Shown piece after piece: positions 15,841 to 64,000 of a stretch of DNA of 64,000 bases. Below the pieces are notes generated by a model that was not told the origin of the DNA, searched no databases, and was given only the letters and a program-made list of their open reading frames with translations. The translations under genes and the position numbers were made by a program. This stretch comes from Stictocephala bisonia (taxonomy: Eukaryota > Arthropoda > Insecta > Hemiptera > Membracidae). Position 1 is the first letter of the stretch, and each line of letters starts with the position of its first letter. Location of the stretch: the NCBI GenBank assembly GCA_035578905.1, contig JAQJVL010000325.1:372001-436000 (forward strand), in the 5' to 3' direction.

Positions 15841-16079
15841 ATAAATAGTTGTCCAGTAGGATCTTCAATGTTCAATATTTTCACCTTGAGATTTTTGGAC
15901 GTTTTTTAAAAATGTTTTTGCAAGTAGAATTTTAAGCGTGATTTTATACACATTGATTCTTGAGGGCTGTGTTCCACTGGCCTTTAAAAGTGCAATGGTA
16001 ATCTGATGGAGTTATTTTATCTATCAGCTGTGTTACAATTAATATTGATAAAATATAATTTTTAAAGATATTGGTAAAA

Positions 16080-18330
16080 TCAGAGATTATAATATCATTA
16101 ATTTTGATTCATTTATATTTGATACAATGTCCCTCCCATGGAATGATACTCTTCAACTAACCAATATTGCCACAATGGTCAGTAAGTTCAACGTATTTAT
16201 AAACTTCTTGATCAATATGCCCCACCTAAAAAAAAGCCCGCACCCTGGATTAATCATCAAATACGTAGAATGCAAAAGCAACGAGAAGCATGCTTCCCAA
16301 AGGCAAATAGATCTAAGTGTACCTATGATTGGGATGCGTATAAAAGATTAAGAAACCAAACCCAGCAACTGATCCGTAATTCTAAAATTAGACATTATTA
16401 CCGATCATTATCTGACAAGAATAAGTTCTCTAAATCACTCTGGACAAAGGTTAAGGAGCTGGGGATTGGGAAGTCAAATATTAATTCCATTAACATAAGC
16501 TTTGATGATTACTTCACTAATATTCCTATTGATTTGTCAAAAGCAAACATTTACTTCAATGAACTATTCAGTTCTCCTTTTCTAAGGCATCATACATTCT
16601 CATTCCGTTTGGCTACTGATGGAGAAGTTCTAAAAGCCTTGAATTGTATAACCAGTATTGCAGTCGGAGCTGACAGTATTTCAATAAAATTTATAGGACA
16701 TCCCTACCCGTTACACTAGCTATCATTACATCAATATTTAATTATACTTTAATGACAACTACTTTCCCCAGTTCCTGGAAATTTGCTATTGTTCAATCTC
16801 TACCCAAAACTCCAAATCTTCTATGTCCCTCTGATTTACGGCCAATAGTATTCTTCCCGCCTTGTCCAAATGCCTTGAAAGAATTGTTCATAAGCAAATA
16901 TATAATTATCTTTCAAACAGTACACTAATATCTATCTTTCAATCTGGGTTCCGTCCTAATCACAGCACTACAATAGCCTCTTGAAAATCACCGATGATGG
17001 AACAGAGGAATTTTTCAATATTAACCCTTTTTGACTTCTCTAAAGCTTTCGACTGTGTTTACCATCCCTTACTCCTTCTGAAACTAAAACATATGAGTTT
17101 TCTGATAGCTGTGTGGACTGGGTTGGGTCCTACTTGTCGGGTCCTCGCCAGTGTGTGCGTACTGGGGAGGGCACGTCAGGATGGAAACCTGTGATCCGAG
17201 GTGTGCTTTTAGGGATCCGTTTTAGGACCCTGCTTTTCTCACTTTACATTGACGATGTAAGATCTGACATATTTTTCTCTAAATATCACTTGTACGCTGA
17301 TGACTGACAGATTTACCAACATTTTCCTACTGCTGAGTTTCACCGAGTTGTTTCACAAATGAAACTTGATATTGCTGCAACAACTGCTTGGGCACAGAGA
17401 CATGGACTAATGTTAAATCATGATAACACCAAGACTATTCTTATTGGACATTTTAGACTGCTTCGCCAAATCAATTCAACTGACTTTCCTAGACTGAGAC
17501 TAAATGAGAATACTCTCGACTCCTCCGACAGTGAAAAGAATTTAGGACTTACTATGACCAAAACTTTCAGTTGGAGTGATAATGTTACGCTGGTGTGAAG
17601 TAAGGTGTTTCCTGCCATTCATAGTCTTAAACGGCGTGCTTCCTATCTACCATTTTCTGTTAAAGTGGTGCTGGTAAAAACTCTAGTGCTGCTTCACTTT
17701 AACCACTCTGATGTGTTGATCAATAACATGGCTGTTAAGCTCTCGGACAAGCTTCAAAGAGCACACAACTACTGTATTAGATTTATTTTCAATTTAAGAC
17801 GGGACGATCACGTTACTCCATTTTTTAAACAATGAGGTATGCTAAACGTAAAAAAATTTCGTGCATACCACATCCTTATTTTGATGTTTAATATATTAAA
17901 CACTAGATCTCCCGAATACTTGTCCGAGCGTTTCAAGTTCATCTTTAATATCAGCACCAGTAATACACGCCAGGGAGCCTCCATACTATCAGTCCTATTC
18001 ATTATACGACTCTTTATAGCAACTCTTCTACTATTTCTGCTTGTCGCTTATGGAATTTACTCCCTGACAATATCAAGGCCATTGATAAGTGCGCTCGTTT
18101 CGGGTTGGAAGTGAGGGACCTGCTTCTGCGAGGCCTGTGGGCGTGGGTGGGAGTCGCGGTGGTTGTGGTTCATGAGTCATTTGTATGTGTGAGGTATGAA
18201 CGAAAACGAGTAATGTTTTATATCTGAATATTTACTTATGCCTGAAATAATTTTATGCATCAGTATTGCAGTTTTGCCATTTTGATTTTTAAAGTGTTTT
18301 ATATATATATAAGCTATTGATTTTATTAGT
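16080..18330 (+). pseudogene. LINE (CR1/L2-like non-LTR retrotransposon), frameshifted copy
   Basis: This is the longest retrotransposon remnant. In order there is the linker between endonuclease and RT (WDAYKRLRNQTQQLIRNSK near 16340-16395), the fingers (PSDLRPI near 16830, FQSGFRPNHST near 16937), motif A LFDFSKAFDCVYH (near 17026-17064), a damaged motif B (GVLLGIRFRTLLFSLYIDDV, 17199-17258) and motif C YADD (about 17293-17304) followed directly by a TGA stop. Then come AWAQRHGLMLN (17386-17418) and the C-terminal region to about 18220. The apurinic endonuclease domain and 5' end are missing. At least five frame changes or stops separate the blocks, so no protein is made. It is the same family as the minus-strand fragment at 2.1-2.7 kb. 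The 3' end is not sharp; AT-rich sequence starts by about 18300. Confidence 0.92.
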
Positions 18331-47589: not shown

Positions 47590-48540
47590 TCACTCTTTCA
47601 ATTAATCCCACTTTCAGCACCGGTGACAGCTTACCAACTATACTGTCTCCCAGCTGTTCGCCAAAAACTCATCCACGTCATAAAATGCGAGGTAGGCTAA
47701 AAAGAGTTTCGACGAGTTCAGAAGGCTTTAAGATTTGTGATTATTTTCATTGAATTGGGCAGTCTATTGTAGACATTAACACCTGCTTCCGAAGGTAAGT
47801 GCCCAAACGTTACCATTCCATATCTCCCAGTCCTATTGTTCGGCTCTTAGTCAAGGAACATTTTGAGATGAAAAAGTTATTGTTTTATGAACGTAGAGAG
47901 GTTAACGTTAATATTTTCAAATGTTTAAAAATTGGCCTGCAATAGTCTCTGAAGTTGACTTTTGCGATTATTCGTATTGCTTTTCTCTGTAATCTGAACA
48001 ATCTCAAGATTGACTGTTCACATAGGACCCCCACAACACTACGCCAGAAGCTAAGTGAGGATATATCAAGCCATAATACGCCGTCATCAGGACCTGAATA
48101 GGCCAGTATGTAACTAAAGTCCTAAAAACAAATATGCCTCATGTTAATTTAGCGCAAACCATGTCAATATGGACATTCCATGTCATCCCTCATCCAGCTG
48201 TATTCCAGGGAATTTCCAATCATTTCTACAATGGTGACCTTCAACATCACATTGGGGCTTCATTCTAAGCCACAAGGCCGTAAGAAAATTTAAAAAAAGT
48301 TTGATTAGAAGTGTTTGCTTTTAGATCGAGGTTCTTGAAATGTTGAATGGATTTATTCAACTCTAAAAATGCTTGTTGTACTACAAGTTCCAGTAAGTTG
48401 TTTTTAAAACACAGGGTTGTATCATCTGCATACTGCACGATTTTCTCTTGTTGCAGTGATGCCCCAATGTCATTGACATAAACTAAGAACATGACTGTGC
48501 TGGGAATCGATACCTGAGGGACACCATAGCACAGGTTGAT
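47590..48540 (-). pseudogene. LINE reverse transcriptase fragment from motif B to the C-terminus
   Basis: On the minus strand it begins at the palm with YGVPQVSI (motif B, Gly to Val damaged) and FLVYVNDI (48470-48535), then motif C VQYADDTTLCFKN (48394-48432). It continues through the thumb (LNKSIQHFKNLDLKAN) to a tail with LFHLKMF and YNRLPNSMKIITNLKAF-like segments near 47740-47900. Motif C keeps both aspartates, but frameshifts and stops follow. The 5' part ends abruptly at about 48540. Its tail style resembles the plus-strand remnant at 55 kb. Confidence 0.85.
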
Positions 48541-48624
48541 TAATTTAGAAGAATGGTTTCAGACTTGGATCAACTCAGTTCTTTGGCTGATGAATGAACC
48601 AACTCACCAGTTCACAAGGCTCTG

Positions 48625-48740: not shown

Positions 48741-49020
48741 TAGTTATTAGGAATATTAAAATACTGATTATATGAGAAAAAAACAACAACAACAAAATCA
48801 AGAATTGTAAGCATACTCTTTATGGGAGTTCCGTTCATTCGACCTTGAACAATGAATGGAATACAACTAAAATCTATGGTTATGATTGTATTTTGTAGAG
48901 TTAAAATTTTACATACTTCTTTATTTCAAATAAACTATCAGACAGAAAACATGAATATTATGTTTCTTTTGAACTGAATTTATTATTTGACATTTGTAGC
49001 TTATAGATTGCTTAATATAT
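48741..49020. other. No gene seen
   Basis: AT-rich sequence between the SINE and the foldback. Confidence 0.4.
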
Positions 49021-49022
49021 TT

Positions 49023-49200
49023 ATATATATAAAAATAACAACACTTAGCAATCTTTTTGGTGTTTTTAATTTTCAAGATCGATTTCATTCTCGTAAGACT
49101 ATTCTGTTTCTCAACTGATGATAGTCTTACGAGACTGAAATCGATCTTGAAAATTAAAAACACCAAAAAGATTGCTAAGTGTTGTTATTTTTATATATAT
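49023..49200. mobile_element. Long perfect-arm foldback element
   Basis: An 80-bp arm (49023-49102) and its reverse complement (49121-49200) differ by about one base and enclose an 18-nt spacer (49103-49120). No protein is encoded; the minus open frame 48921-49166 is symmetric noise. The right arm and spacer together contain a hammerhead core (next entry). The near-identity of the arms implies a recent origin or strong conversion. Confidence 0.93.
49111..49150 (+). ncRNA. Candidate type I hammerhead ribozyme, complete core
   Basis: The parts occur in the required order: UCAA (helix I 5', 49111-49114); CUGAUGA (49115-49121), the invariant CUGANGA box; one linker U (49122); helix II AGUCU/AGACU (49123-49127 with 49132-49136), closed by UACG, a UNCG-class tetraloop; GAAA (49137-49140). 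AUCGAU (49140-49145) follows and is self-complementary, then C49146 as the expected cleavage nucleotide (AUC), then UUGA (49147-49150), which pairs with the first UCAA. A two-base loop cannot close helix III within one molecule, so activity would need two RNAs paired through AUCGAU, as known for minimal hammerheads of Penelope-like elements. The left arm of the foldback lacks the CUGANGA box, so only this strand has a core. Activity is not shown. Confidence 0.62.
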
Positions 49201-49382
49201 GAATTTATTAGTTTTTTTTAATTGTATAGCATCTGAACAGTAATTTAGTTTTTGATTGTGATTTTATGTCACAAAAGTATTCATATCCATGCGCTGGGTC
49301 AGAATGCCACCAACACTTGACCTACCTGATGTTTATTCAGTGAGCTGGAACAGACTTAGTAATTAAAAAAAAGAAAAAAAAA

Positions 49383-56399: not shown

Positions 56400-57532
56400 T
56401 AGACAGATACCATGAACATTGTATTGAATGACGACGATAGCAAGTGTGATGAACATTATATTGAATGACGACGATAGCAAGTGTGATGAACATTGTATTG
56501 AATGACGACGATAGCAAGTGTGATGTACGTTATATTGAATGACGACGATAGCAAGTGTGATGAACATTATATTGAATGACGACGATAGCAAGTGTGATGA
56601 ACATTATATTGAATTGTGACGATAGCAAGTATAATGAACAATTATATTGAATGACGACGATAGCAAGTGTGACGAACATTATATTGAATGACGATGGTAG
56701 CAAGTGTGATGAACATTATATTGAATGGCGATGGTAGCAAGTGTGATGAACATTATATTGAATGGCGACGTTAGCAAGTGTGATGAACATTATATTGAAT
56801 GGCGACGATAGCAAGTGTGATGAACATTATATTGAATGACGACGGTAGCAAGTGTGATGAAAATTATATTGAATGACGACGGTAGCAAGTGTGACGAATA
56901 TTATATTGAATGACGACGGTAGCAAGTGTGATGAAAATTATATTGAATGACGACGATAGCAAGTGTGATGTACGTTATATTGAATGGTGACGATAGCAAG
57001 TGTGATGAACATTATATTGAATGACGACGATAGCAAGTGTGATGAACATTATATTGAATGACGACGGTAGCAAGTGTGATGAACATTATATTGAATGGCG
57101 ATGGTAGCAAGTGTGATGAACATTATATTGAATGGCGACGGTAGCAAGTGTGATGAACATTATATTGAATGGCGATGGTAGCAAGTGTGATGAACATTAT
57201 ATTGAATGGCGATTGTAGCAAGTGTGATGAAAATTATATTGAATGACGACGATAGCAAGTGTGATGTACGTTATATTGAATGGTGACGATAGCAAGTGTG
57301 ATGAACATTATATTGAATGACGACGATAGCAAGTGTGATGAACATTATATTGAATGACGACGATAGCAAGTGTGATGAACATTATATTGAATGACGACGA
57401 TAGCAAGTGTGATGAACATTATATTGAATGGCGATGGTAGCAAGTGTGATGAACATTATATTGAATGGCGACGGTAGCAAGTGTGATGAACATTATATTG
57501 AATGACGACGATAGCAAGTGTGATGAACATTA
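56400..57532. repeat. 37-bp tandem array with 8-unit higher-order repeat
   Basis: About 30 copies of a 37-bp unit containing AACATTATATTGAATGACGA and GATAGCAAGTGTGATG. The variant TACGTTATATTG occurs at 56526, 56971 and 57267. The last two are exactly 296 bp (8 units) apart and lie in matching blocks that start AAAATTATATTG, so an 8-unit block was duplicated. The first is 445 bp from the second (12 units plus one inserted base). Open frames here are repeat translations. Confidence 0.96.
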
Positions 57533-57609
57533 TTATATTTTTAAATAAATTGTGATGTAATGTTAAGTATTATCTATAACCGTTTATAAAGATATAATTA
57601 TATTTTTAA

Positions 57610-57735
57610 AAACATACCATAATCGTTGTAGTTGTGTTTGATTGGGGGTTTAAATAAAATAATGCCGATCGTCAAGATTATAGTGGTTGGCGATTGGTAT
57701 TAATTAACATAGTAACTAATTAAGGTTGACTGTTC
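57610..57735. repeat. Family F copy
   Basis: It resembles 37410-37540: GTTGTAGTTGTGTTTGAT, GATCGTCAAGATTATAGTGG and AATTAAGGTTGACTG. No ends were defined. Confidence 0.5.
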
Positions 57736-57852
57736 ATTAAAAAAACTATTTATTAATATATTATTTCGTAGGCTTAAGAAGCTGGTATAGTAATTAATAA
57801 CTAAAGCTTGCGGGATCGACCGCGTAAAGGTGTTATCTACAATATTTACATC

Positions 57853-57895
57853 ACCAAACGTTTCGCCCATGCTATGATGTGGCATCCTCAGTGGT
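57853..57895 (-). ncRNA. Candidate hammerhead ribozyme, left arm
   Basis: Read on the minus strand: ACCA (helix I 5', 57895-57892); CUGAGGA (57891-57885), a valid CUGANGA box; one linker U (57884); helix II GCC-A-CAU…AUG-GGC with a bulged A and a six-base loop; GAAA (57864-57861); the ACGU palindrome for helix III; a U at the cleavage position; and UGGU (57856-57853) complementary to the first ACCA. Every universally conserved position I can check is present. Helix III is only four self-complementary bases, so a dimer would be needed. Activity is not shown. Confidence 0.62.
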
Positions 57896-57917
57896 TTTCT
57901 CTGAGACAGTCTCGGAT

Positions 57918-57963
57918 ATACCGCTGAGGATGCCACATGCATCATGGGTGAAACGTTTGGTAT
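57918..57963 (+). ncRNA. Candidate hammerhead ribozyme, right arm
   Basis: Plus strand: AUACCG (helix I 5', 57918-57923); CUGAGGA (57924-57930); linker U (57931); helix II GCC-A-CAUG-CAU-CAUG-GGU, with the same bulged A as the left arm and a terminal G-U pair; GAAA (57950-57953); ACGU (57953-57956), self-complementary; U57957 as the cleavage nucleotide; then UGGUAU (57958-57963), complementary to AUACCG over six pairs including one G-U. Helix I differs from the left arm but stays paired in both, as expected if the fold matters. Confidence 0.66.
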
Positions 57964-58025
57964 TGTAGATATTGTAAATAACACCTTGACGCGGTCGTTA
58001 TTGCAAGCTTTTGTTATTACTATTT

Positions 58026-58720
58026 ATCAATAAGCTAATATCCAGGGTACTAGGGTATCTACAACAACGTAGAATACAAACCACGTAATATTGATCTGAT
58101 GTTCGTAAGAGTAACTAGTGATATCCTCTATACATGTTCTAAATCATTCAGCCTCATTAAATAATTTAGGTCCATTTTATGTGTGATGATTGAATCAGAT
58201 TATTGGTCCAAAACGTTTATTAAATTTATACCGACATTAATTATGACACATTTCAACACTGTTCACTTCCAAGTAGTGTTGGTCAACATCCCCTCAGTGT
58301 TTCACAAATTTTCATTAATAAAGAAAAAGTTATTCGGATAAGTGGTCTGAAGGTAAACGGATCTCTTAAATGTTTTCACAATCCTAGTAAAATAAGACTT
58401 TACTAACTTAGGCTGGCAATGGCGACTGTTTATTCACACACCATTATTAATACGCATAGATCTCCCTTGTATAACACGGTATTCTGGTATCCTAGCGGCC
58501 AGTCCGCAGCGGTGTGTATATATACACTGTTTACATACCCAAGTTTACTGTGATTAGTAAATGTAAAATATCTGATGACTAATGATTTGTCATGGCTCTT
58601 TTTTACTGTTACTATTCCACTTATCTTAAGACACAATTGAATAAAACGGTAATTCTAGCTGGCAACTTGAAACACTGGCGTAATGGAAGTGTCGTGACAG
58701 TATATTTTAGTCTGTAGTGT
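58026..58720. other. No gene seen
   Basis: AT-rich sequence. The open frames at 58430-58636 and 58621-58818 (minus) lack recognisable features; the second runs into a family D copy. Confidence 0.4.
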
Positions 58721-63844: not shown

Positions 63845-64000
63845 CTCCTTTCCGTCATTTCACTACCATAACCATAACTTAGGTTAACCTAACATAACAA
63901 AAACCAAACCTAATGTAACACAATTAAACCTAACCTAACCTAACCTAACCAAACCTAATATAACATAACCAAACCGAACGTAACATAACTATACCTAACA
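63845..64000. repeat. Left end of a MITE-like element followed by CCTAA-rich repeats (runs off the window)
   Basis: CTCCTTTCCGTCATTTCACT is close to the CCGTTAATTCACTA terminus of the MITEs at 21.2 and 36.9 kb. About 50 bp further begins degenerate CCTAA/CATAA repeat, with an exact run CCTAACCTAACCTAACC at 63931-63947. CCTAA is the complement of the insect telomere repeat TTAGG. The right end lies outside the window. Confidence 0.65.

Follow-up and report, generated by a model that had tools for sequence, protein, structure and literature searches.

Head-to-head hammerhead cores in a short foldback insertion of Stictocephala bisonia, a probable product of Penelope-like retrotransposition

Minimal hammerhead ribozymes reportedly occur in the pLTRs of Penelope-like elements (PLEs), as Cervera and de la Pena are said to have described in 2014. 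Reverse transcription of PLEs begins at two internal sites, the interval between which is called the 'tail', and in the PLE minimal hammerhead PAc the type I core overlaps the ORF start, cleavage takes place only with protein, and the cut lies ~26 nt past the start codon (PMC11167929). According to the available part of one account, PLE minimal hammerheads are without a stable helix III (PMC6155905). For the EN-containing Penelope elements of Adineta vaga, the available part of the description reports head-to-head pLTRs, an optional 31-bp one-sided tail, short target duplications and palindromes at the inverted junctions; in those elements, a complete or partial PLE, or captured DNA, lies next to the inverted pLTR, mention is made of solo pLTRs as well, and self-priming of the first cDNA is put forward as a hypothesis (PMC3846280). 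Animal non-LTR retrozymes, as far as the accessible text of their description goes, are short, non-autonomous elements that contain a type I hammerhead, and their duplications exceed 4 bp (PMC7229834). How the inverted pLTRs and one-sided tails of PLEs are formed, and what role the hammerhead plays, is unsettled in the available parts of the published accounts.

Herein, we compared these systems with a locus of the treehopper Stictocephala bisonia. Within the window, that is, the whole stretch of 64,000 nucleotides that was analysed, positions 57759-58018 are one 260-base foldback insertion, and both hammerhead cores form its arms (Table 1). The inverted repeat extends over 57795-57871/57943-58019 at 86%, plus 57877-57895/57920-57938 at 95%, and the insertion is flanked by a target-site duplication of 14 bp with one mismatch (93%). 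In this copy, both arms extend to the inferred RNA 5' end and are separated by a single base (GAGAC-A-GTCTC). The predicted fold of the whole foldback had an energy of -155.8 kcal/mol (z -21 versus shuffles). A 37-bp minisatellite of ~30 copies (56412-57533) stops ~210 bp before the foldback, and the right end of the window (63886-64000) is an AACCT-type repeat array.

Table 1. Features of the two foldback insertions in the window
Feature	Position	Strand	Basis or remark
target-site duplication, left copy	57745..57758	.	ACTATTTATTAATA; direct repeat and same tail boundary in other copies
one-sided ~31-bp tail	57759..57789	-	sense ...TTAAGCCTACGAAATAATA; aligned with tails of other copies
tail-bearing pLTR-like arm	57790..57907	-	inferred RNA 5' end 57907 to arm end
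minimal type I hammerhead core, minus	57853..57895	-	predicted cut after 57857
ATG (A9, extra U and first base of helix II)	57883..57885	-	ORF 57700-58023 (-); consensus MPHHSMGETFGDVNIVDNTLTRSLPEALVIS
tail-less inverted arm	57908..58018	+	inverted repeat and copy alignment
minimal type I hammerhead core, plus	57918..57963	+	predicted cut after 57957
target-site duplication, right copy	58019..58032	.	ACTATTTATCAATA; direct repeat
family-1 unit, predicted cut position			after GAAACGUU; 5' end predicted downstream of cut = UGGUGAUG
second, younger PLE foldback	48975..49213	.	duplication 48975-48988/49200-49213, tail ~48989-49012
second foldback, arms	49013-49102/49121-49210		97% complementary; outer ends overlap duplication
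second foldback, hammerhead core	49111..49150	+	TCAA CTGATGA T AGTCT TACG AGACT GAA ATCGAT C TTGA

In the plus core, helix I (AUACCG, 57918-57923), CUGAGGA (57924-57930) and an extra U (57931) are followed by helix II (GCC-A-CAUG/CAUG-GGU), GAAA (57950-57953), ACGU (57953-57956), U17 (57957) and helix I' (57958-57963). The minus core consists of ACCA (57895-57892), CUGAGGA (57891-57885), GAAACGU, U17 (57857) and UGGU (57856-57853). The core residues CUGANGA, GAAA, U16.1 and H17 are all present in both, and the two opposed cores had the coordinates and anatomy given in the preliminary description. Helix I is short (4-6 bp), with a G.U at 10.1:11.1 of the plus strand. In place of a stable intramolecular helix III there is just the self-complementary ACGU, which requires a partner copy; judged from their sequence, the cores are best placed with the PLE-type minimal variants rather than with the canonical type I ribozymes. 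For both cores and for the consensus, the predicted hammerhead fold was 1.0-1.5 kcal/mol less stable than the minimum-energy fold. It had also been proposed that the pairing of helix I survived divergence between the copies. Helix I does pair in both, but the two arms alone do not demonstrate compensatory change: one of the inner four pairs differs between the arms (A-U versus G.U, a one-sided change), and the outer two pairs form in the plus copy only. Unlike this arm-versus-arm comparison, the comparison of PLE families makes compensatory change in the helices visible.

The hammerhead ATG starts at stem II, and the predicted cut lies 26 nt past the last base of this codon and 29 nt from its A. 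The type I core overlaps this putative start codon and would be cut at about the distance given for PAc, for which it is ambiguous whether the ~26 nt (PMC11167929) counts from the last base of the codon or from its A. The frame from this ATG is open across the arm and the tail for 42 to 43 codons, a length that chance could give. As in the PLE minimal hammerheads of the available part of PMC6155905, a stable helix III is missing, and the head-to-head arms, the one-sided tail, the short target duplication and the palindrome at the inverted junction are shared with the Adineta vaga elements of PMC3846280, within the accessible portion of that source. The foldback differs from the published PLE pLTR hammerheads in having two cores on opposite strands, ACGU as helix III and no ORF attached. 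It also differs from the Adineta vaga inverted pLTRs in that the pair stands alone and belongs to a numerous family. For convenience, the foldback 57759-58018 and its genomic relatives are termed family 1, and the second foldback of the window (48975-49213) and its relatives family 2.

As the two cores belong to opposite arms of a single palindrome, they were treated as one event when chance matches were estimated. The loose pattern CTGANGA..GAAAC had 4 matches in the 64-kb window versus 0.68 expected. An RNAmotif-like descriptor, composed after the finding had been seen, consisted of CTGANGA, 0-1 nt, a helix II of at least 3 bp, GAAA, then A15.1-U16.1 over a 2-11-nt loop, H17, and a helix I of at least 4 bp. 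This descriptor matched three times in the window, namely at the two foldback cores and at 49115, each time with a palindromic helix III. A first-order Markov simulation of 1.274 Gb at the composition of the window gave 668 matches, 20 of them with a palindromic helix III, corresponding to 0.034 matches of any kind and 0.0010 with a palindromic helix III per 64 kb.

The Rfam hammerhead models had been suggested as a check on the cores, and they gave no match. There was no hammerhead in the whole window at gathering scores; at E up to 10 there was none in 57780-58040, nor in 19 further copies. The matches obtained at E up to 10 were mainly to microRNA precursors and small RNAs, all under the family cut-offs, and were put down to the hairpins. 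When the whole genome was searched with RF00163, five weak matches and none over the cut-off were found (best 73 of 163,965 candidates scored). However, Rfam also missed the PLE-linked 49115 core in the same window, so the negative result at the foldback is uninformative. Rfam hammerhead models can miss PLE-type ribozymes.

A genome search for GIY-YIG (best 150 of 4,772 candidates scored) revealed open frames of up to 810 aa, with a tandem spacing near 2.63 kb in some contigs. From the 150 scored loci, 30 were retrieved for the hammerhead search, and the architecture (CTGANGA, then GAA with a palindromic A...T and H17) was present in 27; the pattern was not matched in L055, L069 and L084. In 26 of the 27, the hammerhead was on the GIY-YIG strand, 450-512 nt downstream of where GIY-YIG starts. 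When the letters of the GIY-YIG loci were shuffled, 0.465 pattern matches per 30 were obtained. One extra nucleotide between A9 and the helix II register was common to all these loci and the foldback cores. Since the pattern demanded the core letters, their invariance in the PLE loci proves nothing; for the PLE-linked sequences it did not demand the pairing, the position or the spacer of one. Pairing was assessed in 21 distinct sequences, comprising 17 PLE-linked and 4 window or consensus rows. Helix II pairs 1-3 were standard in 16, 19 and 21 of these, respectively, and helix I pairs 1-5 in 20, 20, 15, 19 and 12, and at least two types of pair occurred at each of I1-I4 and II1-II3. Helix III was ACGU in the foldback 57759-58018 and AUCGAU or AGGCCU beside the GIY-YIG ORFs. 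The model R1, trained on ten PLE-linked hammerheads, additionally matched L069 and L084, and neither R1 nor R2 (both from PLE hammerheads) gave a significant match to the foldback cores. As general detectors the two models were rejected as too family-specific, R2 also missing the cores of L056, L059 and L060. Joint MAFFT alignments of the PLE hammerheads were out of register and were discarded.

The second foldback of the window is linked by its sequence to such an element. Its core (49115) has the helix III AUCGAU and the cleavage triplet AUC, and was matched by R1 with 69.3 bits (E 8.5e-13), R1 having been trained on its PLE-linked relatives. The foldback shares 96-97% identity with the pLTR and tail of the PLE locus L083, and 95-96% with those of L082. 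L083 carries RVT_1 (1.6e-14) and GIY-YIG within one open frame; its GIY-YIG was over the cut-off in the genome search, reached 4.7e-8 when its 85 residues were scanned alone, and was not listed when all 615 residues of the frame were scanned. An attached ORF with reverse transcriptase (RT) and GIY-YIG is thus present for family 2, and was not found for family 1 among the best-scored candidates. The tail of family 2 reads TAAGCTACAAATGTCAAA and ends ~90 nt past the predicted cut; that of family 1 reads TAAGCCTACGAAATAAAA, with 98 nt from the predicted cut to the tail end. In the family-2 copy L086, the arms match the PLE pLTR at 100% and form the loopless palindrome AAAAATTTTT. Elsewhere in the window, broken frames with weak, sub-cut-off RVT_1 matches were seen at 2203-2601 and 48265-48558, and a broken frame at 16052-18227 was reverse-transcriptase-like by eye, the scanned pieces being without such a Pfam match.

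In the 1.68-Gb host genome, family 1 had 82 matches at 40 places (best 40 of 3,962 candidates scored), all of which were retrieved and aligned. The arms diverge by ~10% from the consensus. A tail was present on one side in 38 of the 40 copies (34 with at most 5 errors and 4 with 8) and was not found in L003 and L047; none of the 40 had a second good tail. Weak tail matches with 7-8 errors on the other strand were noted in L026, L037, L046 and L048, of which that of L026 lies past a perfect 13-bp duplication and the others far from the arm end. Duplications scoring at least 8 were recognised in 22 of the 37 copies with both boundaries, versus 4.0% of 1,328 mismatched flank pairs, and ranged from 9 to 17 bp; the other 15 copies were without a duplication at score 8 or more. 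The junction between the arms could be read in 37 of 38 copies and was mostly copy-specific, the exceptions being L025 and L041, which are one base apart, and the near-duplicates L012/L013. The family-1 copies L091, L092, L098, L100, L104 and L106 have similar flanks on one or both sides, and here another repeat or a duplication apparently took the insertion with it. L108 (G000:C70:2845830-2846520) is a retrozyme-like tandem of four head-to-tail units with a period of 124-125 nt, the last of which ends in a normal tail.

The core letters were kept in 41 of 74 family-1 arms. A higher conservation of the core than of its flanks had been named as a test, and among the copies there was no significant excess (0.959 for core bases versus 0.932 for other non-CpG bases, p=0.19). 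Such a result is expected where copies decay independently, and for the same reason core conservation inside family 1 is no test of function.

To locate a source of family 1, the genome was searched with the 149-nt consensus of arm and tail (best 40 of 4,078 candidates scored), and 22 of the 40 places had a partner arm on the opposite strand. Seventeen of these partner arms stop at position 112-119 of 149, with no arm extending beyond 124; the inner ends of the partner arms range from 1 to 88. Of the 40 places, 18 were read, comprising 17 that lack a listed partner and one that has it. In these, similarity starts at AGTCTC (query position 1 or 2) and the upstream sequence differs, bar the flank-sharing loci; a short opposite stub of ~20 nt is kept at five, and none continues into a long frame. 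The family-1 arm matched none of the 30 PLE (GIY-YIG) loci, and a search with the N-terminal peptide gave open frames of at most 130 aa (best 150 of 10,608 candidates scored). An RT/endonuclease ORF attached to family-1 sequence was therefore not found in the 30 PLE loci, the 18 read places or the peptide search, and the full-length element with this terminus that the preliminary description had envisaged was not encountered among the best-scored places. Family 1 was thus encountered as short pieces only; its source may be scarce, may have been lost or left among the unscored candidates, or may be a different PLE that acts in trans.

The features expected of a PLE insertion, as listed in PMC11167929 and in the available part of PMC3846280, are pLTRs, a one-sided tail of 30-40 bp and target duplications. 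Inverted pLTR-like arms, a one-sided tail and target duplications were all found here, and the hammerhead lies near the pLTR/ORF start. It is thus very probable that the foldback 57759-58018 is a product of PLE retrotransposition, made up of two head-to-head copies of a PLE-type RNA 5' end. In this reading, each arm would extend from the RNA 5' end (AGUCUCAGAG..., which lies 22 nt ahead of the AUG) through the hammerhead to an internal RT start site, the distal site for the tail-bearing arm and the proximal one for the tail-less arm. The cores of the family-1 RNA would cleave weakly, as dimers or with protein help. The PLE-type inverted-repeat origin proposed earlier is upheld by the anatomy and the shared hammerhead; the term 'remnant' is better replaced by 'insertion made in this form'. 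As to how it was made, we favour the joining of two cDNAs over self-priming. A PLE particle with two sister transcripts would prime one cDNA on each target strand (double-ended target-primed reverse transcription), one at each of the two start sites, and the cDNA ends that correspond to the RNA 5' ends would then be joined head to head. Taken as a whole, with family 1 as an ORF-less, SINE-like PLE passenger whose hammerhead overlaps the start codon, this scheme is offered tentatively. The fixed but different outer ends of the arms fit two priming events at two start sites, and the missing loops and the fillers fit end joining. Since the insertions include sequence upstream of the predicted cut, uncut RNA would have been the template, in agreement with PAc in vitro (PMC11167929).

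Alleles that the two arms have in common could come from sister transcripts, self-priming or gene conversion. The old family-1 copies cannot decide the matter, so this comparison was made on young family-2 copies. In all seven young family-2 foldbacks (six retrieved and that of the window), the arms agree in their alleles at sites 80 and 89, which were picked after looking, 12 of 5,040 permutations being equally good; private differences accompany these sites in most of the copies. For family 1, the within-copy distance of the arms was 0.164 versus 0.172 between copies (permutation p 0.01). With the near-duplicates L013 and L034 left out, site 69 (G/A) had no arm association (14/7/4/4, p=0.43), and the non-CpG site 64 was associated (p=0.03). 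Both the seven shared pairs and the slightly closer family-1 arms are what a PLE foldback made by self-priming of the first cDNA, instead of two-cDNA joining, would show, although gene conversion between the arms could equally produce this likeness. A self-copied arm should also bear the tail, whereas no partner arm does; moreover, almost no loop is left at the inner ends in the window copy and L086, and the fillers are mostly copy-specific. Self-priming is a possible route that we would stop short of calling probable.

An animal non-LTR retrozyme, that is, a small element that has a circular RNA and a type I hammerhead and relies on PLE enzymes for its movement, would account for the short copies, the lack of a long ORF in those read, the hammerhead itself and the four head-to-tail units of L108, and the duplications exceed 4 bp as reported in the available part of PMC7229834. 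Yet the copies read are not tandem, save L108, and the insertions run from AGTCTC to the tail and not from the predicted cleavage site, so that uncut RNA was copied; in both respects family 1 departs from the retrozymes, as far as that part of PMC7229834 describes them. The open frame of ~43 codons from the hammerhead ATG, whose length chance could give, is a further point against a retrozyme, which we consider improbable. Long inverted arms, a high copy number and the lack of an Rfam hammerhead match would all suit a foldback DNA transposon or MITE with a coincidental likeness to a hammerhead, but the ends of family 1 are asymmetric, with a tail on one side, the 22 recognised duplications vary in length, and the junctions mostly differ among copies. 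Besides, 18 of the 40 consensus places are without a partner arm at E 0.001, five of the read ones keeping the ~20-nt stub, and the motif would be expected by chance 0.001 times per 64 kb. With neither symmetric TIRs nor duplications of a fixed length, and at this motif rate, the MITE and chance readings were rejected, a MITE being very improbable.

A read-through transcript is predicted to close into a long hairpin, and under the favoured PLE reading the cores in this genomic copy are for that reason most likely inert. The preliminary description correctly held that such a transcript contains one core in sense, and the predicted hairpin would additionally mask that core. With the cores on opposite strands and the transcript a predicted hairpin, cleavage within this insertion is unlikely. 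Since helix III is only ACGU, catalytic activity would need a tandem second copy or protein help.

PLE hammerheads, inverted pLTRs and tails are already published. For an ORF-less, high-copy foldback family like family 1, a limited literature search, covering parts of the sources, found no published description. The many short foldbacks, some of them nearly undamaged, are a natural record of single insertion events, in which the inner ends suggest the RNA 5' end, the outer ends suggest the start sites, and the arm alleles are relevant to the number of templates, one or two.
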